Shown: positions 5,000-62,885 of the stretch, piece by piece
Numbering within the stretch: the first letter of the stretch is position 1
Layout of the letters: every line of letters begins with the position of its first letter
NCBI RefSeq assembly: GCF_039555335.1
Contig: NC_092640.1
Span: 36,450,784-36,514,783, forward strand
Length of the DNA stretch: 64,000 nucleotides
Source: Amphiura filiformis
Taxonomy: Eukaryota > Echinodermata > Ophiuroidea > Amphilepidida > Amphiuridae
Direction of reading: 5' to 3'
Notes under the pieces: model-generated
Databases searched by the model: none
What the model was told of the DNA's origin: nothing
The model's input: the letters and a program-made list of their open reading frames with translations, nothing else
Program-made: the position numbers and the translations under genes

Positions 5000-6106
5000 A
5001 CCTAAATACATAGACCACTCAAAATAATAGAAAACATAACATTAAAATTTAAGATTTTTTTTCTCTTTCCTAAAAACGATCGCCTCACAAAACAATATAA
5101 AACAAAAGATAGCCACTCACAAAATAATAGAAAACACAACATTTAGATTTTGTTTGTCTCTCTTAAAATTGACCGCCTCACAAAACAATATAAAACAAAG
5201 AAAACTATTCACAAAATAATACAAAACATAACATTAAGATTTTTTCTTTCCTAAAAACGATCGCCTCACATAACAATATAAAACAAAAGATATCCACTCA
5301 CAAAATATTAGAAAACATAACAAATAGTGTTTTTTTACTCTTTCCTAAAAATTAGTGATCGCCTCACAAAACAATATAAAACAAAATAAATCCAATCATA
5401 AAATAATAGAAAACATAACATAGTGGATTTTGTATCTCTCTGCAAATGATCGCATCACAAAACAATATGAAACAAAAGAAATCCAATCACAAAATAATAG
5501 AAAACATAAAACAGTGTTGTTGTTTTTTGTCTCTCCTGCAAATGATCGCCTCACAAAACAATATAAAACAAAAGAAATCCAATCACAAAGTAATAAAAAA
5601 AATAACATAGTGTTTTTTATCTCTCCTGCAAATGATCGGTTTCTTTTGTTTTATTTAGATTTTTAATGAGAGATTAAAACTTCATATGTTATGTTTTGTT
5701 TTATTTTGTAATCACAAAATAATACAAAACATAACATAGTGGTTTTTTACCTCTCCTGCAAATGATCGCCTCACAAAACAATATAAAACAAAAGAAATCC
5801 AATTACAAAATAATACAAAACATAACATATTCGTTATTTTTATCTCTCCTGCAAGTGATCGCCTCACAAAACAATATAAAACAAAAGAAAGCCAATCACA
5901 AAATAATACAAAACATAACATAGTGGTTTTTTACCTCTCCTGCAAATGATCGCCTCACAAACAATATAAAAGAAAAGAAATCCAATTACAAAATAATACA
6001 AAACATAACATATTCGTTATTTTTATCTCTCCTGCAAGTGATCGCCTCACAAAATATTATAAAACAAAAGAAATCCAATCACAAAATAATACAAAACATA
6101 ACATAA
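5000..6106. repeat. AT-rich tandem array, first part
   Basis: About 12 units of 70-90 bp; the left units are shorter and more diverged, the right ones (from about 5390) nearly identical. The ORF-like stretches on both strands repeat with the unit and are not genes. Confidence 0.88.
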
Positions 6107-7378
6107 TGTTTTTGGGCGGGTGCGGCGTGCCGCACCCGCCTATATTCTCTGACTATTGACCTACTTTTTCACATGCCGCAGTGTTGAGAAAATATTCGTG
6201 CCGGTTATATCCCAAACACCCACAGAAGTGATAGTTTGCGGCGAGTTTTGTAATTATTACTTGATTTTGATATGTAAGTAATACAATAAAGTCGTCATAG
6301 GCAGTAATGTGTATGTATTAAAAGAAATAACAAAAATAATTATTTAAGTAATAGAAATACTATTTTGAAATTGCAGCAAGATTTGCAGATGTTTTTATTT
6401 GAACAGTACCAGTTCACCAGTTTTGCTAGTTTTCCTAATCTTTGGGCTAAATTAATAGCATCGTGAAGGTCATACATATCATACATATCAGACAGCTTCG
6501 GCAGGTACTTAAATACAGCTTGTATGTGCATTGTGTTCAGTGTGTACATAGGCTATTTACTTTTCAAATCTTGTGACAAATAGTGCTGGCTGATGCTTGT
6601 ATAAGGTATTATAGACAAATTATTAGAATACATGTGCACCAGTAGAAATGGCCCAGGTTGAATAAAATAAATAAACATATGAATGAATATTTTATTCCCT
6701 GGATTATTTTTGTTGGGACAAAATAATGATATAGTTTGACGCTTTGAAATACAGTTATGTTAATCATAATAAAGTTACAAAGTTACAAAGTTAAAAAATG
6801 ATATCGAAATATTGTAAAATCAAACTTTTTCCCTCATAAGTTGTATCAAAACAACATATTGAGGAAATTGATATGACATATTTTTAAACTTTGATATGGA
6901 AATATACCCCAGCCCTGTTGTCTCACCAGAGAAGATGAGCAGAAGTCTTTCTATCTGATGATAAAAAAAACCTCTAGGTATGATTACGAAAATGTTTTAA
7001 ATAACTATTATCTACAAAAGTTTTATAACAATGTTTTATATAAAATATTAACATAAAACGTCTGTTATGATGTGAAGGGTTAATATAAAAACAGGGAAAA
7101 TCTGTTCCAACTGACCAGCAGAGAACAAAGGATACCGTAAGCAATAGATAAGATTAAAATCAGGGAAAATATGACACAACCTCCAATGGGGGAATAACAA
7201 ACGTATGTACACGTATAAAGTTAAACACTCTTTTAACTTTGTTTATACGTTTTGTGTTATTCCCCCATTGGAAATTGATGTTGTGTCATATTTTCCCTGT
7301 TTTTAATTGTGAACTTGACTTATTCATTCATTTATCTTGACAATTTTTCATTTGCCCGCCCTATTCCTTTTAAAGGAA
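6107..7378. mobile_element. Insertion splitting the tandem array
   Basis: 1.27 kb without satellite units. It begins at a GC-rich hairpin (GGGCGGGTGCGG / CCGCACCCGCC, 6115-6141) and ends near GCCCGCCCTATTCC. Inside is a 150-bp foldback (about 7155-7305, arms GGGAAAATATGACACAACCT / TTGTGTCATATTTTCCCTG). No protein recognised. Whether it is one element is inferred from the array resuming on both sides. Confidence 0.55.
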
Positions 7379-8340
7379 TTTTTATTTTATCTCTCCTGCA
7401 AATGATCGCATCACAAAACAATATAAAACAAAAGAAATCCAATCACAAAATAATACAAAACATACCATAGTGTTTTTTTATCTCTCCTGCAAATAATCGC
7501 ATCACAAAACAATATAAAACAAAAGAAATCCAATCACAAAATAATACAAAACATAACATAGTGTTTTTTTATCTCTCCTGCATATGATCGCATCACAAAA
7601 CAATATAAAACAAAACAAATCCAATCACAAAATAATACAAAACATAACGGGTTTTTCACCTCCTATGCAAATGATCGCCTCACAAAACAATATAAAACAA
7701 AAGAAATCCAATCACAAAGTAATAAAAAATATAACATAGTGTTTTTTATCTCTCCTGCAAATGATCGGATTTCTTTTCTTTTATACTGTTTTGTGAGGCG
7801 ATCATTTGCAGGATAGATAAAAACCCCACTATGTTATGTTTTGTTTTATTTTGTAATCACAAAATAATACAAAACATAACATAGTGGTTTTTTACCATTC
7901 CTGCAAATGATCGTCTCACAAAACAATATAAAAGAAAAGAAATCCAATCACAAAATAATACAAAACATAACATAGTGGTTTTTTACCTCTCCTGCAAATG
8001 ATCGCCTCACAAAACAATATAAAAGAAAAGAAATCCAATCACAAAATAATACAAAACATAACATATTGCTATTTTTATCTCTCCTGCAAGTGATCGCCTT
8101 ACAAAACAATAAAAACCAAAGAAATCCAATCATAAAATAATAGAAAACATAACATAGTGGTTTTTTTTTTGTATCTCTCCTGCAAATGGTCGCATCACAA
8201 AATAATATGTAACAAAAGAAATCCAATCACAAAATAATAGCAAACATAAAATAGTGGGTTTTTTATCTCTCCTGCAAATAATCGCCTCACAAAACAATAT
8301 AAAACAAAAGAAATCCAATCACAATATAATAGAATGCATA
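7379..8340. repeat. AT-rich tandem array, second part
   Basis: About 11 units of the same 85-90 bp satellite, including one inverted unit at about 7765-7850, which makes a local palindrome. Confidence 0.88.
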
Positions 8341-9049
8341 AAAATGTGGAGAGACTGTAGAGGGCGGTAATGTGAGTGCGGCACAAAATCCTCACACAGA
8401 AATTACACCCTAAATCGTGCCATTGCTGCCAACTTGTGTTGAAACACCCCCTAGGTTTTACCCTACCAGCAAATTTAGCCCCGATAATAAGGTAATTTAA
8501 TATAGAATTAACCCCCTAATAAGTTTTTGGGTAGTAAAATGCAACAAATGTACCCCTTTATTTTGGACTCATAATTTACCAACAATTTGAAAAGGTACCC
8601 TAAACAAGTTGTTCATTTTCAGAAAACTATCCTTATTCTTGAAAATCAGTGTTTGTTAGACCCTAAATGCGTCACGCGCGTAACTTGCCTTGCCTAAAAA
8701 AACACCCCCTTATCCTTGTTTTTTTTTGTCACGCATGCGTACAGACTATTTATGTGAGTGCCCCCCCACCGTGGTAATATCTCACACCAGGGTCGTAAAA
8801 GGTCACACATCGTTACTAAGTCGGGGCCCAGAGTTATTATCTTCGGGCCCCGACTGCCATAAACTGGTGTCAATCTTTGTCACGTTTGAGTGTTTATTTG
8901 GTATCAAATTGGAGATAACAAGATTCTGCACACGACCGTATCAATCACATTGTCATAACAAGATCAAGTTTTGGTGTAGGACAGGTTACATGACTGTGGA
9001 CTTTCTTTATTTGAGAAGTTCATAATAAAACATTATGTCCATCATGGGC

Positions 9050-14357: not shown

Positions 14358-14593
14358 ATATACAAATCTCAGTTATTATTTATATTATTATTCATGCGAA
14401 AAATATGGATAAATCTTTTCCAAGATTTTTTATTGATTGTATTGTAAAACATAGCATGAAACATAAAAATGTAATTTACGAAAACTTATAATAAATCTGC
14501 GCAATTGTCATTTATTAATAAGTGTTTGATTCTTACATCTCCATCCTAGGCCTCTTGTTGTGTAAACAAGTAAACATACAGCGTGTTTATAGT

Positions 14594-15171
14594 GAATATA
14601 CCGCATACCGTATACGATAATCCTTGTATATATGTACCGATACTCTTGCTGTTTATAGTGAGACACAGTTACCGCACAAAATATTACCATCTAACATTAT
14701 CGTACATTTGCAATGGCCCCGAGGTCACACGGGGAATGTGTAAATATTGTGGCGCGAGCTATGAACAGCCAATTCAACAGTACGATCATGGCGGCGAACA
14801 TGTAGCTTCTGTTTTGATAAACTCTTATAACCTTTAAAAGTGACTTATTACCGGTAAGTGACTTACGTCCGGCCGTAGTTATGAATATACCGCATACCGT
14901 ATACGATAATCCTTGTATATGTACCGATACTCTTGCTGTTTATAGTGAGACACAGTTACCGCACAAAATATTACCATCTAACATTATCGTACATTTGCAA
15001 TGGCCCCGAGGTCACACGGGGAATGTGTAAATATTGTGGCGCGAGCTATGAACAGCCAATTCAACAGTACGATCATGGCGGCGAACATGTAGCTTCTGTT
15101 TTGATAAACTCTTATAACCTTTAAAAGTGACTTATTACCGGTAAGTGACTTACGTCCGGCCGTAGTTATGA
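14594..15171. repeat. 289-bp tandem duplication, nearly identical
   Basis: Two head-to-tail copies starting GAATATACCGCATACCG (14594 and 14883), period 289. The only clear difference is a 2-bp length change in TGTATATATG versus TGTATATG. Frames through it (GPEVTRGMCKYCG...) occur in both copies and match no family known to me. Confidence 0.93.
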
Positions 15172-15236: not shown

Positions 15237-16505
15237 CAGGGGCGTAGCCAGACTTCTTTGCCAGGGTGGGCAAGGCTCCCAAAATTTCCCCCAAGTTAAT
15301 AAATAAATAGAGCAAAGCGAGCATAGCGAGCGGAGCGACCACTGGCGTGGGGTCCAGGGCCCGCTTTAGGGCCCCTGGTGGCTGTCCAGGGGGCGATGCC
15401 CCCGGAAGCTCATGGGTTTTAGGCATTTTTATACCATGAGGGGAAGCCTCCTTGTATACATTTGTAACGTTTTTATGTGAAAATTTTGCCATTTAAAAAT
15501 GTAAAGTTTTGTTTTTAGAATTATCTGAAAGGGCCCGCTTTAGGGTCCCTGGTGGGCGTCCAGGGGGCGAAGCCCCCGGAAGCTCATGGGTTTGGGGCAT
15601 TTTTATACCATGAGGAGATGCCTCCTTGCATACATTTGTAACGTTTTTATGTGAATATTTTGCCATGTAAAAAATGTAAAGTTTTGTTTTTAGAATTATC
15701 TGAAAGGAAACAAAAAATAATTTACAATGTAAGAACAATACAATAAAACAATACTGATATTGAAAATTATTAATTTACTGATATTCTTGAGTTGATTTAA
15801 CAAGTTGTTACATTCCCTATTATATTCACCCCTTATTTCCCCCTTCGTTCTCTTTCCTTCACCTTTACATTCTTCAATTTCTTCCCCTTTCTCGCATTCC
15901 TTCCCCCTTCCATTAAATTACTTTCCAATTACTTCCACTTGTGTTCCTTAAGTTTCCATTCTTTCTCTTTCCGTCTTCTTCATATTCTTCAGTTAAGTTT
16001 CCTCCCTTTCTCTCATTTCTTCCCCCATTCCATTACACTCACTACTGCCCCTCAAATCACTTCCTTAAATTCCCTCTCCTTCTTCATATTCTTCAATTTC
16101 TTCCCTTTCTTACACTCCTTCCCCTGCGTATGAATTGCTTCCCCACAATAAACATGCAAGTTGTTGTTTTCCCCTCTTTCGTTCCCCTTTCCCTATTCCT
16201 TCCCCATCCCTCTTAGGCTTCCCTTTTGTTTGTTTTATTTCCCTCTTTTTTTATTTATTCAGGTTTCCTCTCTGTTGCTTTTCCTTCCCTCTTGACCCTT
16301 TCTTTCTCCATTCCCTCTTCCTTTTCTCTTCTTTCCTTTCCTTTCCTCTTCTTTCTTTTTTTCCTTCCTTTTTCTCTTCTTTCCTTTCTTTTCTTTTCTC
16401 TTTCCCCTTTCCTTTCTCTTTTTTCCTTCTCACTCCAAAATTTCCCCAGATTTTTTCCAGGGTGGGCAGAGTCGCCCACCCTGCCCACCCCTAGCTACGC
16501 CACTG
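15237..16505. mobile_element. hAT-like non-autonomous element, 8-bp TSD
   Basis: Target duplication GTCATCAT at 15229-15236 and 16506-16513. Ends CAGGGGCGTAGCC and AGCTACGCCACTG are the hAT-type CAG.GGCGTAGC inverted repeats; a GCCAGGGTGGGC block is repeated inverted just inside. No transposase ORF. The interior holds a tandem pair of about 178 bp (about 15351-15528 and 15532-15709, both with CAGGGGGCGA.GCCCCCGGA) and a 600-bp pyrimidine-rich tract. Confidence 0.92.
15830..16440. repeat. 600-bp polypyrimidine tract inside the hAT-like element
   Basis: The + strand is almost only C and T (TTCCCTTTCC-like words, densest at 16255-16435), with short mixed stretches. Long open frames here on both strands are composition artefacts. 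Confidence 0.85.
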
Positions 16506-20520: not shown

Positions 20521-20608
20521 ATGGCCGACAAGTCCCGGCCCCTTTCCAGCGAAAATACAGCTTATTTAGCCAATGTGAACATGGGGGTCATCGCCAGAAA
20601 TATTTTCC
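20521..20608 (+). CDS. Possible 5' coding exon of an unknown gene (tentative)
   Basis: ATG at 20521 after a GC-rich, CpG-containing stretch reads MADKSRPLSSENTAYLANVN then MGVIARNIFP. I do not recognise the protein. The frame meets the left end of the 3-kb inverted structure at 20609. At the far end of that structure CGACGG is followed by TAAGTGTG, so that CGACG/GTAAGTGTG could be a donor. This fits an exon split by the element, but no downstream exon or relative is known. Treat as a hypothesis. Confidence 0.3.
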
Positions 20609-21263
20609 CGTCGTTTTATCTAATCAGTTTCTGTTTCCGTATCCGTAATAGTTTTTGTAAGTCATTGTTATTCTGAAGTGGTAGTCTCCCTGGTGTGACC
20701 AATCTTTTATTCTAGCCTTTTGTTAGTTACTAAAATTTGAAGCTCGTGAATTTCAGTTTTCGTTTTGGTAAGTTATATTGATTTTTGACATAAAACCTTG
20801 AGATGTGCGGTTGGGTGCTAATCTAGACAAAAGAAGAGTCTAAATTTTACGGTCCTAAATTCGCGGTAAATTGTACGGCTTCAATTGACTTGTGTTTGGT
20901 GTATATGCACTTACGCCTAGACGTAAGTGGCTCGTAAAAATTTCTTGCATTGAAATTATATACTAACCATGTTGCCAAGTTATAAGCAAAAATCTTTCAT
21001 ATTGGCGATGAAACGAGCGTCTGAAATAGTCAAATATCTCCCAATGAGGCGCGTACAAGTGGTGATTTGGTAATCATGTTTTATATTGAAATGCAATACA
21101 AAAGAATTGCATTGGAGAAAAGATAATGTATTCTATTCATTCGTACCAATGGCAAGCTAATCTGATAATTGGTTGGGCCTATATGCAAGACTCGGGTTTA
21201 TTTTAAATGTTTATTTTTGCAGAGCTTATTTTCAGTCATGGATCATACTGATAAATTTCGCAA

Positions 21264-22149: not shown

Positions 22150-22935
22150 GTGTATACCGACCTCTGCGCCGCTGCACCACCTATGGTCCTCCTACTCTCA
22201 TCCCCAGGGTGTGTAGTTGTTTGCAGTAGCTGATCGTATACATGACTCAAAGCATCATCGCGATTGATGACGTTGTACACCCGCTATCTGATCCACATGG
22301 CCTCTCTGATCCACCGCGTTTGTTTACATGAGTCTTTATCGACGACTTTGGCCCCTTCCCAATTAATCACATGGTTTTGCTGTGAAACATGGTCTGTAAT
22401 TGCTGATTTGTTTATTTCCTCAACTGAGTCCTTCCTTACCGCTCGGGTTAATGTTCTTGTCGCTAACTTATCCGATTCCTTTTGGTGCTCTTTCATTCTT
22501 ACGCTAAACTGCCTGCTGGTTTCCCCAATGTACGACTTGTTACAATTTTGACATGGGATCTCGTAAACACAGTCACAAGTTTTCGCGTCTTCTCTTTTGT
22601 CCTTCGGGTGCACAAGGTTGTTTTTCAAAGTGTTTATATGCGGCTTCATATAGCGGTTTGGATGTTGTGCTTTTTGAAAACTCGCTGTAACCTTTCCGAT
22701 ACACCCTGTACATATGGACTCACTACCATTCCATTGCTCTTTTCCGCGGTCTTGTCCTTTTGTTTCTTTTTCGCTTTGCTCTTATCTGTCATCTGTTGTT
22801 TGACTTTTTCGATGGCCCAATTGGGGTATCCACAGCGATTCAATGCTTGTCTTACTCTTGCTTCCTCATGCTGTTTGTCTTCTTCTTCTGTAACAATTGA
22901 GTCCTTTCCTTTCTATCTAAAAGTGTTCTAACTAC
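22150..22935 (-). pseudogene. Penelope-like element fragment (linker + GIY-YIG end)
   Basis: - strand, two frames. 22843-22646 reads RCGYPNWAIEKVKQQM, VVSPYVQGVSERLQRVFKK. After a shift near 22650 it reads LVHPKDKREDAKTCDCVYEI, PCQNCNKSYIGETSRQF, then NHVINWEGAKV, WIREAMWIR. These match the linker and GIY-YIG part of the element at 50434-51864. The RT catalytic motifs are absent. The 22976-23060 stretch is an inverted duplicate of the 22160-22255 end. Confidence 0.88.
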
Positions 22936-23978
22936 CCCTAGCTTTTGGTGTAGGGGGTGTTGCGATGCAAAGGAACTTATTCTTTAAGTCATGTATACGA
23001 TCAGCTACTGCAAACAACTACACACCCTGGGGATGAGAGTAGGAGGACCAGAGGTGGTGCAGCGGCTGTATCATTGCAACGAATGAATAGAATACATTAT
23101 CTTTGCTCCAATGCAATTATTTTGTATTGTATTTCAATATAAAACATATGATTACTAAATCACCACTTGTACGCGCCTCATTGGGAGATATTTGACTATT
23201 TTAGACGCTCGTTTCATCGCCAATATGAAAGACTTTTGCTTATAACTTGGCAACATGGTTAGTATATATTTCAATGCAAGACTATTTTTACGAGCCACTT
23301 ACGTCTAGGCGTAAGTGCATATACACCAAACACAAGTCAATTGAAGCCGTACAATTTACCGCGGATTTAGGACCGTAAAATTTAGACTCTTCTTTTGTCT
23401 AGATTAGCACCCAACTGCACATCTCAAGGTTTTATGTCAAAAATCAATATAACTTACCAAAACGAAAACTGAAATTCACGAGCTTCAAATTTTCAGTAAC
23501 TAACAAAAGGCTATAATAAAAGATTGGTCACACCTGGGGGACTACCACTTCAGAATAACAATGACTTACAAAAATGGATACGGATACGGAAACAGAAACT
23601 GAAAAGATAAAACGACGGTAAGTGTGCCTTTTTGTGCTTGCGGCTACTCCTTAAACCCGTGGGCTGTATGAGAACAAAAGGTACCTCGCTCATATTGGCG
23701 CTTTCACATACCTTTCTTTTGATGACCTAATTGACAGTAGGCTGCCTGGTAAAGCGTTTATATTGTGTCAGGTCAGTTACCGATTTAATGGCGGAACCCT
23801 TTTGTCTTGAACAAAAGGTACCTCTCGATGAATAGTTTCGGCACAAAGGAACAATGCGTTACGTAATCTATTGCTCCTCCATTCTTATTAAATCCTCCTT
23901 GGTTGTATACATACTGATGAATTCCATTAATGTTCAAAACTGACTGACTTTTTTACATAATATCATTCTCTGTTTTAG

Positions 23979-25971: not shown

Positions 25972-26045
25972 TTTAGTTTAGCTCAGTTGGTTAGAGCGTC
26001 GTGCTGGTAATACGAAGGTCGCCGGTTCGAATCCGGCCGGATGCA
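25972..26045 (+). tRNA. tRNA-like sequence, anticodon loop GGT, broken acceptor stem
   Basis: D arm GCTC/GAGC with TTAGCTCAGTTGG (A box), anticodon arm TCGTG-CTGGTAA-TACGA, T arm GCCGG-TTCGAAT-CCGGC (B box), and a T9 run 9 bp downstream like a Pol III terminator. The 3' acceptor CGGATGC has no partner upstream (TTTAGTT). GGT would mean Thr, an unusual anticodon in animals. Likely a pseudogene or SINE head. Confidence 0.55.
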
Positions 26046-48900: not shown

Positions 48901-51900
48901 GCCACAGGTAAACAAACATAGTCATATATAAATACATCTTAGTAGCCAAGCACACAGTGATAGGCAATATGCTGCTGTAACGTTTATCAAAAAACAACCT
49001 GTAAAAAAGAAAAAACAAAACAATAGATTACAACAATGCATATTAACACAATGAAACAATGAACATGAATACCATAAAGATTCCCCTAATGCCGCTATAG
49101 GCTCACTTGACACTTTTGGAACTTTAGGCACAACCTAAAAGTGCCCTCCCGTAAAATTCCCACCAGCAAATAAGGGCATGTATCCTTAATTCTTGTTGGG
49201 ATTTCAGAGGAGAGAGCTCTCTATTTGCACATGAAATTTATACCAAGGCAAAGGAGTCCAAGTGCGCCATTAGGTGAATGTTTACGGTATTTCGCAAAGA
49301 CCTTTCTCAATGGAGAACCGATCGCATAAAAAGGACTGGGTCACATTTGCATCACACGATGCTATGCAGATTGATCGGCGAATGAGGTGCTGATGTGATG
49401 ATGTGATTCAATTAGCCAATCGGAATCCAACTTTATATTTACGCCATAAACTGCACCAAATGGAGCAGTGCGAAAGATATTGCAAATAGGTACAATACAT
49501 GTATACAAGTAATAAGTGTATTTAAGTAGATCTGCAATCATCCACAGGCAGTGTGTTTGAAAGTGGGTATGTCCCACAGGATAAATTCTATAATATAATT
49601 TCATGTGTTTTTTTATCATGTATTATTAGGCTAAAAACTATGTCGTACTTATTGCTTGAGAAATTGTACTTGCGCTGAGTGTTGATGCTTGTCTAATCGG
49701 GGCTAGTTTACCACGATGGACTGTGCACTGATTTGACTAATTTCCCAACAAGTAATATTACTGTCACAATTTGTAACCTACTTCGCTATCGTAGTGTGAC
49801 GTTAAATTTGATCTTCTGCTTCTGCTCGATTTCTGCTGGCTGGGCTCTATAATTGAGCATTAAAGCCAGGCATGTGTCGGGGGGGGTTGAGAAGATCGAG
49901 ATGTAATTTGTGCAGTGAGTCTTAACAGTTTCTGTACTTGGTGAGCTTGTGATTGATTCTGGTAGTGTGTTCCACTCTTTTATGGTGCGGTTGAAGTAAG
50001 AGTTCTTGTGTATGTTAAGGCGGCCAAATGGTATCTGGAAACTGTAGTTGTTGCAATGAGGAAGGCCTTGCCGGGTTGCAGGGGTCAGGTACCGGTCACT
50101 GGGTATGTCCACCAAGTTGTTGTTGATTTTATATATAACAAGGCTAATCTGGCAACTTGGCGTCGGTGCTGTAATGTTTGCCAATCCAGATCAGACAATA
50201 ACTTAGTGACTGTTCCAGGGGTTCGTTGCTGGGTTTTGCTGGTGTATGGATCCCATACAACCGAGGCGTACTCCACGTGGGGTCTTACGAGAGCTGTGTA
50301 TGCTGTTTCTTTGATTTTTTCGGAACAGTTGTACAGGTTTTATTATAAATGATTTCATTTGAACAAAACTAAAATGTAACTCATTATTGACGGTTTCGCC
50401 TATCATGGTCAGTAGGCATCATCAGAATGATGGTTGTTGATCCTTACTTCCGGTTGGACGGAAAGTGTGGCGGAAGTGTTTATCGAAGAGGGGGAGATTT
50501 TTAACTCCCATGATGTTGTCTCGTTATTTACATACACACCCATAGATAAATCGCCTGAAGTGATTAAATCTCGGCTTGAGGATGATAAGACTCTGAAAAA
50601 TAGAACTCTGCTAACGGCTACCGATGTGATAGAATTATTACGCTTTGTGCTCACAACGACATATTTCTTGTTCTGCGGAAAGATATACAAACATCAGTTC
50701 GGTGCAGCCATGGGAAGCCCCGTCTCCCCGGTGGTGGCTAACCTGTATTTAGAATTCCTTGAGCAACAAGCGCTGGCCTCGGCGCCATTGGATTATAGAC
50801 CTACCCTTTGGAAGAGATATGTTGATGACATATTAGGGATTGTTAAAAAAGATCAGGTAGACAATCTCACCGACCACCTCAATCAAAGCGACCCCACGGG
50901 AAGCATAAAGTTCACTTATGAGAAAGAACAAGAAGGCACTCTCCCATTTTTAGACACTTTAATTGTCCGGAAAGCGGATGGCTCGGTTAAGTTGTTAGTA
51001 TACAGGAAGGTCACCCACACCGACCAGTACCTTATCTTTGAGTCCCACCACCATAAACTGGGTGTTATCCGCACGCTTCTTGATAGAATGAATAGTATAG
51101 TTACGGAAGAGGAGGATAAGAAGCAGGAAGAAGAAAAGATCAAGCAGGCGCTCGGGCGCTGTGGCTACCCTGGTTGGACTTTCAAACAAGTCAAAGATAA
51201 AATGGTGAAAAAACAGAGCAAGGCCAACACCAAGAAAGACAGTACAAATCAGACAAAGGGACTTGTTGTGATCCCGTACGTAGAGGGACTCGCAGAGAAA
51301 GCCAATCGAATCTTCAGAAAGCACGGTATAGCGACAGCCATACAACCGAACACCACTCTCCGTAAAATGCTAGTGCATCCTAAAGACAAAGTTGATCCTC
51401 TCAGCACCACCGACTGCATATATGAGATTCCATGCACTAACTGTAAACACTCCTATGTGGGGGAGACGGGCTGCAAATTTGAAACTAGACTGAATGAGCA
51501 CCAAAAAGAAACGGCTAGGGTGTCAAAGACCAAAACCAACTATACCCGACAATCTCGCAAGCAATCAGCGAGTGAACAGTCGAAGTCCGCCATTGCGGAC
51601 CATGCGGTCCAGCAAAACCATGTCATCAATTGGGACAATGCAAAGATCTTGTGCAAAGAGTGCGATGCAAATACAAGAAGAATCAAAGAATCCATCTGGA
51701 TCAGGAGAAGAGGCCCGAACGTCATGAACAGAGATGAGGGGCCCACTTCCTTAGTCACATGTATGATCCTCTCCTGGCTGATAAAACACCCTCGTCGGCC
51801 GGGATTCGTCCAACCGGAAGTAAGGATCAACAACCATCATTCTGATGACGCCTACCGACCATGATAGGCGAAACCGTCAATAGTGAGTTACATTTTGGTT

Positions 51901-54900
51901 TTGTTCAAATGAAATCATTTATAATGTTTATCAACAAACCTGATGAATCTATTTAGTGAGTTGTACAGGTTTCTCCTCATGAGACCAAGAACACGACTGG
52001 CTTTGGAGGTGACATGTGATATTTGAGTATCCCACTCCATGTCACTCTGAAAGTGCACCCTGAGATAGGGGTGTGATGTAACAACTTTCGAGTTTTTGCC
52101 TTCAAAGTCTATAGGTACGGGGAGTGACAGATCTACTTCTGTTGATGTTCATAACATAACATTTGGATGCATTGAAGTACATGAGATATTTATTTTGCCA
52201 GTTATAAAGGTTGTCTAAGTCTTTTTGCAAAGCATTAGAATCCTCTGGTGAGTCTATGGTTCTGTAAAGTAAGCAGTCGTCTGCAAACAAACGTGTGGTT
52301 GAGGATAAATTATCAGGTAAATCGTTAACATAAAGCAGAAATAAAAGCGGCCCAAGGACCGTTCCCTGGGGAACTCCCGAGTCTACAGAAAGCGATGATG
52401 ATGTTTGTCCTTCTAACACAACTCTCTGGGTTCTACCTGCGAGGAATGATCCTATTCATTGTGTGAGTTAACTCATTGGCAGGTCAACTGGTTCACGCTA
52501 TCTGAGCTCTGAACCACGATCAAAATGATCACAGTACAAAGTCAATGCGTTGTTAACGTGTGTGCAAACCAAGCGTGAACCAGTAACTATGACTAAGGTA
52601 TGACGTATTTACTGCTATTCACTATTTACTACTGTGCATTTCAACACAGTTGCCTCTTACAACAAGTAGATATACAAATATTTGTCAAATTTTATCAAGC
52701 AGCAATTATAATTATTCAACATTGTTAGTCACCCTCAAAGGAAGGTGGTGGTCAAAAATTGTCAGCCTCGTTTTACATTATCACAATTTTTACAGTTCAT
52801 ACCGAGATTTGGTTAACTTGGAAACTTGGATTTTTCTTAGTAAACCTTTTCCAAATCTTATTATCTGATTATCGTAGAATTAGCCAAATTTTACATAGAT
52901 AAATAATGTTAATGCAAAACGAGTTCATTACATCTACTTTGTACTTACTTTGTACAAAAATAAATAGCGCCATAAGTAAGGAAGGCAGCGACAACTTTAA
53001 CCCATACTGAGATGTCCAGATCTGGTATAAGCCCAATTACAAATAAGATAATGAAAGGAGAGGCCTGCATTACTCTCTTCCTCCATACCTGCAGAAAAAA
53101 CAAACATTACATTGATTTGGGCCTATTGGGCTATTTCACTTACAATCCACACTACCCCTGTGGAAGATTTTGGAAATACATGTATCTTCCACAGGGGGCG
53201 TACAAATTTCAAATGGAATAAACACATAAAACTCACCCTCCTTCAGTGGAAAATTCAGGATGATTCTTTCTCAGAGGGTGTATGAAATTCAAATGGAGCT
53301 GCCTAATGTGTTCATTCTATTTACAAATCGTACTCCCCCTCTGGGAGATATTTCTAAAATCTTCCACAGGGGTAGTGTGGATCTTAAATGGAATAGCCCA
53401 TTACTAGCCTCAGGTTACATTTCCATCACTGGGCAGAGCTTTGACCAGAGTAGGGAACAATGGTTCCAGCACTGTTGCAGCACTGATCCCGTAGCCCTGA
53501 GAAAAAACAGGAAATTGGAATGTACAGTGTAACAAAAGAAACTCTGTAAACCTCTGCAAAACTCTGTAAAACTCATAAACTTCTAGCAATTCAAAGCACT
53601 GATCCACAATCAGTCCTGAGAAAAACCCAGGAAACTGGTAGAGCATATAAAGAAACTCTTGTAAAACTCAGGCACCCTCCAGAGTCTTTCCTCAGATGAT
53701 TAGAGCATTATCACATGTAACTATTGATAACTTGTCTTTGACAACAGGTGCTTATAATGAATGTGATGATTATTATTGCTTATTATTTAAAGACAACCCT
53801 TCAAAGTTATAAAACATTCTTTGTCCAACATACATGTTAAGGACCCGTTATTAAATAGGCAATTACGGAATGTACATTATTACTGTAATGGCTCAGGTCA
53901 GATCTCTGTACAGATGAGTCTGCTGTGGATTTGCCAGAATTCTTCCACTGAAATTGTGCTCCTCCTGCTTTAAACTTGAGAGTTTCCCCAAGTTTGAGTT
54001 CAGGACTAGCACTGAAAATAGACTGGATTAACTCAGTGTATTATCAAGAAATTGGAACAAGGGCAAAAAGATGCACTTGGCTGGGAAAACATTGGCTGCA
54101 ATGCACACATGATTTTTTTCATCAAAATAAAGTCTCAAAATGTGTCTGTACTGTAAAATTTATGTAAATATTTAACTCACAAAATCACCATAATAATGTC
54201 CCTTTATGTGGAATCTTGTAGGCCTTATTCTGGATAAAGAAAACATTTTTCCTTCATTGAATCTTATGTCACATAGTCACAAGGAACGAGTCTAATGTTG
54301 CTAATATTGATTTATTGATTATATTAATAGCAAACAGGCGAGACCTTTTGTTTTACTTTGATTCTAAAGTTGGTGAATCATCACTCATATAAGGCAATAG
54401 AAACAAATTAGTTCGATCTTTCGATCGACCGTCGATGCTTGTTTGATCCGTGTTATTTATTAAATCAATTAATTTACTATTGTTAATTATCATAATATTG
54501 TAATTATTGCCTTTAGTGATATTTACCGATAGAAATTTAGCATTAATTCTTATTAATTAGTTGATAGTTCATTAATAACAGACATCGAAGCAGCATCGAC
54601 GGTCGATCCAAAGATCGAACAAATTTGTTTCTGGTGCCTAACTTTGTGACCAGAAATCCAATCTTTGCACCATATTTACAAAATGCTTAAAATCATAACT
54701 GTGAATGTATATGAACAAAAATTAAGACTAAATCCTCTTGATCGTGTTCCATAATACGTACATATTACAGGGAAATAAAATCCTTTTTACCACTCACCTT
54801 GTCCTGTCTAAAAGGCTGTAAGAATGGGACCTTCTTTGTAAGTGGTATCTCCTCTCCTCTTTGTTCTTTGAATCTCATAACCAAGTAGCCGTTACGACGT

Positions 54901-61483: not shown

Positions 61484-62093
61484 AGTTTTGCACAACAGTG
61501 ATACATGTATCTATGGACATGTTCACTTTAATATCAGCTCATATGAATTCAACAAGTGTCTTTAAAAGGGGGTACTACACCCCTGCCCAATTTTGTGCCT
61601 ATTTTTGCATCTTTCTCAAAAATTATAGCGCATTGGTGACAAGTAAGATATATTATTGGAGCAAGGACTACAACTAAGCTACACTGGAAATTTTATTTCA
61701 GTACAGCAAACAGTTGGTAAGGTGGTGTGCGCCCGTAAGGTGTGGACGTCCCTAATAAGAGCTGGGGACATACGTAATTTTATCGCTCAAAATACCATCT
61801 TTTGAGTTGACTTCCACACTCAATCTCCTCATTGTGCTATAGAACTAACATCGGAGATACTTTGTAGCGCAATTTGAGTGTTGTTTGCTCCTATATTTGT
61901 TGAGATTGGACTGGATTTGTCATCAAACCAGCAGTGCTTGTGTTTTCAATTGGAATTATCATCCAAGATGGCGGCTCGTTACCAATTTCACAGCGGACCA
62001 GAGATGACTACCATGCAGTGCTAAATACTTTGGCCGGGTGTAGTGACTAGTAGGTGTGGGTTGTGACGGGTAACCCTATGTTATTCCACCAAT
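61484..62093. other. No gene recognised upstream of the LINE ORF
   Basis: GGGGGTACTACACCCCTG near 61568 and a GGGTGTAGTGAC word near 62037 may be ends of another repeat. CCAAGATGGCGGC near 61963 resembles a LINE or promoter 5' region. The true LINE 5' end could lie here. Confidence 0.4.
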
Positions 62094-62885
62094 ATGAGGG
62101 TCGGAATTGTCGTGAGTACCATCACCACAGTTTTGTGGTTGATGACTTGTTATCGTGATTCAAAACCCATCCCTTTTGCTGCACAACAAAATGAATCAGT
62201 GCAAATGAAACATGTCTATGTACTGAACCAATGTAATATAAAGAACGCATACGGTCCAACTATGGAGATAATAGATTTATCAGCTTTTGTATTCATTATT
62301 GACTTCTATGACTATATCAACATTACCATATCTCAATTCCAAACAAATACATACTTGTGTAAACTTGAACATGTTTATGAAAGCTTTGTATGGTACCATG
62401 ACATCCCAAGTAAGATCATGTTTATATTTAGATTCTTCCCAGTAAATCTGAAATTACTGCTTGGTAAAAACAAAAACCAAACAAGTGGTAAAGGGAAGAT
62501 GAAAATTCTGATGTATCTATGTTTATTATATATCATGCAGGCCGGGGATACTGAGCTAAATCCAGGGCCAGAGTTCCCATGTAAGATCTGCCAAAATGAA
62601 TGTGACTGGAGTAGGTATGCAGTCCAATGTGATTCATGTGATCACTGGTATCATGCAGAGTGTATGAACATGGATACAATTGTTTACCATGCCTTGGAGG
62701 ATAGCAATATAACATGGATATGTTGTGACTGTGGTATGCCGAATTTTGCTAGCTCGCTTTTTAGTTCAAGCGCTCAACCATCTTGTCAAACAGCTTCAGT
62801 TCACTGGCATCACTTAGTACTGAAGATGAAACTGGCTTATTATCACCAGTCGCAGCATCATCCCCAATACAAAAATCTTATGTAG
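62094..62885 (+). CDS. LINE ORF: 2A-like peptide followed by PHD finger
   Basis: 264 codons. Residues about 1-151 have no recognised domain and end in a hydrophobic stretch (LMYLCLLYIMQA). Residues 152-159 are DTELNPGP, a 2A-like motif that lets ribosomes skip the bond between its last Gly and Pro; such motifs are known at the N-terminus of CR1-like LINEs in sea urchin and amphioxus. Then CKICQNECDW, CDSCDHWYHAEC and ICCDC form a C4HC3 zinc finger. The frame stops at TAG and would continue into the endonuclease region. Confidence 0.85.
   Translation: MRVGIVVSTITTVLWLMTCYRDSKPIPFAAQQNESVQMKHVYVLNQCNIKNAYGPTMEIIDLSAFVFIIDFYDYINITISQFQTNTYLCKLEHVYESFVWYHDIPSKIMFIFRFFPVNLKLLLGKNKNQTSGKGKMKILMYLCLLYIMQAGDTELNPGPEFPCKICQNECDWSRYAVQCDSCDHWYHAECMNMDTIVYHALEDSNITWICCDCGMPNFASSLFSSSAQPSCQTASVHWHHLVLKMKLAYYHQSQHHPQYKNLM

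Follow-up and report, generated by a model that had tools for sequence, protein, structure and literature searches.

Inverted pseudo-long terminal repeats (pLTRs) have been described in the Penelope families of Adineta vaga (Pen2/Pen2a and others), in which target site duplications (TSDs) and 5′ truncation are also seen in different copies (PMC3846280). Minimal hammerhead ribozymes, without a usable helix III and thought to act as dimers, are located in the pLTRs of Penelope-like elements (PLEs) (PMC7761336, PMC6155905; citing Lunse, Weinberg and Breaker 2017). A PLE that has been studied biochemically is Poseidon_Ac (PAc) of Anolis carolinensis, whose units lie in tandem and encode a reverse transcriptase (RT) and a GIY-YIG endonuclease (PMC11167929). 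Here we describe a PLE copy found in 64,000 nucleotides of the ophiuroid Amphiura filiformis (assembly GCF_039555335.1, contig NC_092640.1, positions 36,450,784 to 36,514,783 of the forward strand); this whole stretch is called the window, and positions are numbered from its first letter. We consider it likely, with good confidence, that the copy is a 5′-truncated genomic PLE of the endonuclease-containing type with a minimal type I hammerhead in its pLTR, perhaps originated by priming on both strands of the target. It is an ordinary though well-preserved case: both the ribozyme motif and the opposite-facing ends have already been described for PLEs.

The inserted copy and its site

The sequence-only reading had proposed a PLE with inverted hammerheads at both ends, at 50341..51972. 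Both the sequence and the literature on PLEs support its identification as a PLE, and its left edge was correct; the right edge was not, since the element stops at 51958 and the 14 positions after it, 51959-51972, are the TSD copy on the right (Table 1). The two arms differ at four positions (right/left): 51849 C/50418 T, 51856 C/50411 T, 51883 G/50384 A, and 51897 G/50370 A. All four are transitions, two of which fit the loss of a CpG in the left copy, and they fall in the base after CTGATGA, in loop II, in stem I, and, for 51897/50370, outside the ribozyme. Within the tail, the stretch 51926-51948 was predicted to fold into an 8-bp stem with the loop ACAAACC (−4.7 kcal/mol, z −2.71, equalled by 4 of 200 shuffles).

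The frame 50431-51864 is open and ends in a TGA at 51862-51864, inside loop II; a Pfam scan at E 0.001 gave no family for it. Putative RT motifs can be read in this frame. The body holds the C-terminal part of the RT and the GIY-YIG domain, so the element is read as a 5′-truncated PLE; judging from these motifs and from the length of the Adineta open reading frames (ORFs) without inserts (830-842 residues, PMC3846280), the N-terminal part of the ORF is missing. As in endonuclease-containing PLEs, GIY-YIG follows the RT in one ORF, pLTRs (direct or inverted in such elements, inverted here) are present, and the facultative tail of about 30-40 bp (here 33 nt) is found at one end; elements of this type also have tandem or partial-tandem genomic copies.

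The copy splits a relic of a non-long-terminal-repeat (non-LTR) retrotransposon, in which the Pfam search gave an RVT_1 match at 52102-52455 (E 7.6e-13) and no family in the stretches adjoining the insertion (50085-50339 and 51915-52148). When the flanks were joined with one copy of the TSD, the frame of the empty site was open across the insertion point, and it resembles the final part of a non-LTR reverse transcriptase. The stretches beside the PLE are therefore presumed to belong to the non-LTR element, an assignment that we made from sequence motifs and from the open joined frame. Most simply, arms, body, and tail would all have come in a single insertion event.

Most of this anatomy has its counterpart in A. 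vaga. Pen2a has a 31-bp tail on one of its inverted pLTRs and a 9-bp TSD, a Pen2 subfamily has 5′-truncated copies between inverted pLTRs, Pen5 and Pen6 show inverted pLTRs and 5′-truncated copies, and one Pen2 insertion lies within a non-LTR element (PMC3846280). In Adineta, however, these features are scattered over separate copies; the 5′-truncated Pen2 copy is without a TSD, the Pen2 insertion in the non-LTR element produced none, and the pLTRs measure 181-218 bp, as opposed to 119 in the present copy (PMC3846280). The term hammerhead is absent from the main text of that paper.

Hammerhead cores in the arms

In both arms the order is CTGATGA, one unpaired base, a stem II of five pairs (GCCTA/TAGGC), GAAAC, and the cleavage triplet GTC. 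The features of a type I core (CUGANGA, GAAA, an intervening stem II, and an NUH site) are thus present in both copies, plus one extra base. A 37-nt pattern spanning both cores had 2 matches in the window and 0 in 100 dinucleotide shuffles. A structural rule, requiring CTGANGA, a spacer of 0-1 nt, 4 bp or more in stem II, GAA, a cleavage triplet, and at least 5/6 pairs in stem I, selected just 2 places in the 64 kb; over 60 shuffles it averaged 0.03 places and never gave more than 1. Pattern and rule alike were devised after the motif was known. These matches confirmed the cores in opposite orientation, with CTGATGA, GAAAC, and a paired stem II, that had been claimed from the letters alone. 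The arm alignment likewise bore out the C-to-T change in the bulge of the left copy (50418) and the change in its loop II (50411). The pairing claimed for stem I held for 6 of 7 pairs in both copies and was not full, there being one C.A mismatch (51838/51882 in the right copy). The stems were said to be kept in the left copy, and they are: the stem I difference turns a U.G into a U-A pair, which preserves the pairing, although no covariation is seen with just these two sequences.

Stem III of the monomer would consist of an A-U and a C-G pair around a one-base loop. Such a stem cannot form in the monomer because two pairs would close a single-base loop; two adjacent cores, by contrast, could form a stem III with a central C.C mismatch. 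The expectation that a two-pair stem III would require a dimer for cleavage agrees with the sequence and with the literature on PLEs (PMC7761336, PMC6155905). As stem III is absent in the monomer, the cores were filed only under the minimal, dimer-type PLE variant, and by its sequence the present core corresponds to the minimal type I hammerhead published for these elements. It shares with the published PLE hammerheads the location in the pLTR, the lack of a usable helix III, and the presumed action as a dimer, but those were reported in tandem, while the only two copies in the window are inverted. Rfam did not find a hammerhead in the whole window at the gathering threshold. The search with hammerhead models that the sequence-only reading had suggested gave nothing either, even at E=10: over 50300-52000 the sole two matches were to the fluoride riboswitch, far below its cut-off.

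By eye, the PAc core (CUGAGGA-U-GCC...GGC-GAAAC-GUC) has the same layout, including one unpaired base before stem II. PAc also has a tail and an RT plus GIY-YIG, as in the present copy, and in the RNA printed in PMC11167929 its ORF begins inside the ribozyme and reads GlyGluThr through the core in the same frame as here; this shared frame was the most telling comparison that could be made. The end of GUC is located at ORF nt 29 in PAc and at nt 18 in our copy, and PAc is in tandem, whereas our copy is 5′-truncated and inverted. In the A. filiformis copy the stop of the upstream ORF overlaps, as ATGA, the ATG of the presumed next one; from the ATG at 51861, the frame runs for 31 codons through stem II, GAAAC, and the cleavage site into the tail and then stops. 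To either side the ribozyme core reads as coding sequence, loop II holding the stop of one ORF and apparently the start of the next. This continuity bears on the possibility that the structure is a foldback or DNA transposon with terminal inverted repeats which captured a PLE fragment, its likeness to a hammerhead being incidental. Terminal inverted repeats and a TSD are indeed present, and there is another foldback structure in the window; nevertheless, the PLE ORF runs on into the arm, the stop and the next start lie inside the right arm in the same frame as in PAc, and the tail is on the right arm and not on the left, so that we find such a capture scarcely credible.

Taking the whole sense transcript, the predicted fold paired the right core with the left core (50389-50425) at 10 of 10 sampled positions; the duplex of the arms had −203 kcal/mol. 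Paired in this way, the right core would be sequestered by the left arm, so that the copy's own ribozymes probably do not process it, and as a source of ribozymes the inverted copy is probably inert. The sequence-only reading had seen in the inverted layout a new puzzle about which RNA unit is processed, which was not supported, since inverted pLTRs are a described insertion form of PLEs, 5′-truncated copies included. That the two hammerheads are a working pair defining a distinct processed RNA unit seems to us very improbable. The core and stem II are kept in both copies, but any transcript contains just one sense core, the other being its complement; the arms are predicted to pair over the core; four transitions between the arms are too few to show selection; and the inverted pLTRs have their precedent in A. 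vaga (PMC3846280). Integration, rather than a role in RNA processing, is the best explanation of the inverted arm.

Related sequences and other features of the window

A second PLE fragment is present in the window, and within it 22287-22781 (−) has 54% identity over 117 amino acids to the element and a GIY-YIG match of 25.4 bits, above the cut-off. No hammerhead core was found in it under the structural rule. Considering the level of protein identity, it is taken as another family, and its lack of a core counts neither for nor against the hammerheads of the copy described here.

Outside the window, the core DNA pattern was found in 102 stretches of viral contigs, among which tblastn detected no PLE (the best of 3 matches had E 0.49). 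One IMG/VR contig (L050) has hammerhead-like sequences at 1469, 2083, 3155, and 4371 (+), with a stem III that varies among the four, and another (L099) has two (−). At these six places the same extra base follows CTGATGA, and stems I, II, and III could be drawn by eye. This suggests that an additional base at this point of the motif is tolerated. Rfam, run on 10 of the 102 viral loci, reported no hammerhead on L050 and L099. L050 also carries a Pistol ribozyme (799-874, 62 bits).

The coordinates of the PLE copy and of the remaining features are collected in Table 1. In the frame at 62067-62885 the 2A-like motif GDTELNPGP precedes a PHD finger, and the frame may be where a non-LTR retrotransposon begins. 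The tRNA-like stretch is possibly the head of a short interspersed element (SINE).

Table 1: Location of the PLE copy, its parts, and other features of the window.
Feature	Position	Strand	Basis or remark
PLE copy, whole	50341-51958	+ (ORF sense)	Bounded by exact 14-bp TSDs
Left TSD copy (AGTTGTACAGGTTT)	50327-50340	.	14/14 identity with 51959-51972
Right TSD copy	51959-51972	.	14/14 identity with left TSD
Left pLTR arm, antisense relative to ORF	50342-50460	-	119 nt, 115/119 identical to right arm
Right pLTR arm, sense	51807-51925	+	119 nt, 115/119 identical to left arm
PLE body, C-terminal RT part and GIY-YIG endonuclease, 5′-truncated	50461-51864	+	Open frame, Pfam matches
Tail extension, right end only	51926-51958	+	33 nt; left arm without tail
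Left minimal type I hammerhead core	50389-50425	-	Pattern match; predicted cleavage after C at 50389
Right minimal type I hammerhead core	51842-51878	+	Pattern match and structural rule; predicted cleavage after C at 51878
ATGA in loop II, upstream stop TGA overlapping ATG of presumed next ORF	51861-51864	+	Translation
Non-LTR retrotransposon relic split by PLE	49786-52455	-	RVT_1 match; outer limits by eye
Second PLE fragment	22168-23066	-	GIY-YIG domain; 88-nt inverted arms (97%)
Larger foldback structure	20605-21151 and 23072-23621 (arms)		Adjoins second PLE fragment
Open frame with GDTELNPGP, then PHD finger	62067-62885	+	Pfam E 6.3e-06 (PHD finger)
Several arrays of ~91-bp tandem repeat	5057-8341		
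Two-copy tandem repeat, 287 bp	14593-15171		99% matches
Two-copy tandem repeat, 174 bp	15356-15707		93% matches
tRNA-like stretch	25979-26037	+	47.4 bits; model positions 8-63 of 71

Integration and a possible origin of the inverted arms

The copy could have been formed as follows. The source locus would consist of head-to-tail units, each ribozyme lying at the junction of the stop of one ORF and the start of the next. A long source transcript would bring two cores together and allow dimer cleavage, probably assisted by protein, as we infer from published PLEs. Integration would then proceed by target-primed reverse transcription, in which the endonuclease makes staggered cuts 14 bp apart and the RT begins within the RNA just beyond the pLTR or at the end of the tail, passes the hammerhead into the preceding ORF, and halts early. 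The left antisense arm would be added in the same integration; perhaps a second, short cDNA was primed by the other cut strand at a neighbouring start and was then joined to the first.

For the last step there is a parallel in PAc, which cleaves and extends both target strands and has two adjacent internal RT start sites flanking the tail (PMC11167929). In our copy the inverted arms stop at two points flanking the tail, at ORF nt 65 (left, pLTR end) and nt 98 (right, tail end), beside the exact 14-bp duplications. We offer two-sided target-primed reverse transcription, with each strand of one staggered cut priming its own cDNA at two start sites flanking the tail, as a tentative and rather doubtful proposal. 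It is made less likely by the mapped start site of PAc (ORF nt 111-118), which is not the AC-rich stretch of that element (ORF nt 71-84); a likeness in position, noted by eye, between this stretch and the loop present here (74-80) does not hold. Two-sided priming so described was not found in the PLE literature searched, which left out main PLE and hammerhead papers of 2014, 2017, and 2021.

Several results weigh against the identification of the copy and against the scheme given above. Both domain matches in the frame of the element were below the Pfam cut-offs (GIY-YIG, E 0.00031, 21.4 bits, cut-off 22.6; RVT_1, located before it in the same frame, E 0.0051, 17 bits, cut-off 29.6), although the 54% identical fragment at 22287-22781 (−) is above that for GIY-YIG. 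A search of solved structures gave no match, and the predicted structure of the protein was too poor to use (mean pLDDT 36.6). Protein scans of viral, prokaryote genome, and phage collections (plasmids not searched) gave no relative, and no full-length or tandem copy was found in them, so the tandem source is assumed. With regard to the ribozyme, the frame of the next ORF closes at a TAG within the tail, and GAAAC-GUC in PAc compares with GAAAC-C-GTC here, a difference of one base. The hammerhead was not the predicted fold, alternatives being more stable for monomer and pair: the minimum free energy of the core monomer was −14.0 (right) and −11.9 (left), through another hairpin, against −4.4 and −4.1 for stems I and II, and that of the cofold was −32.2 (two right cores) and −30.1 (two left cores) against −7.8 and −7.2 for the double hammerhead. 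These predicted energies speak against easy cleavage by RNA alone; the PAc hammerhead is likewise not cleaved without protein, cleavage having been seen solely in its presence (PMC11167929). Furthermore, the same report gives unchanged insertion in vitro for PAc hammerhead mutants and zero RNA-seq reads that start or stop at the cleavage site. The start mapped in PAc (ORF nt 111-118, ACAACACA) fits neither the arm ends of our copy nor the AC-rich loop. Finally, for the palindromic inverted junctions of A. vaga, self-priming on an antisense template was the explanation favoured by the authors of the Adineta study (PMC3846280).

Applied to our copy, the inverted arm would come from a single cDNA that primed itself or switched templates, possibly with an antisense template, and not from priming by both target strands. 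We regard this as a plausible possibility, if somewhat short of an even one. A 7-nt inverted match, ACTTCCG (50446, partner 50471), lies across the inner junction 50460/50461; by our own estimate, however, about 0.3 matches of this kind per 100 bases are expected by chance, no inverted repeat of at least 20 nt was found at that junction, and the outer end of the left arm adjoins the TSD, as for a primed start.

The copy no more than suggests how inverted pLTRs are formed. It is a clean insertion, with an exact TSD, an open frame in the empty site, and a tail on one arm, and can be compared with the start sites determined in vitro for Anolis. If both target strands are indeed primed, a single step would explain why PLE insertions have inverted pLTRs, a TSD, and a tail on only one of the arms.

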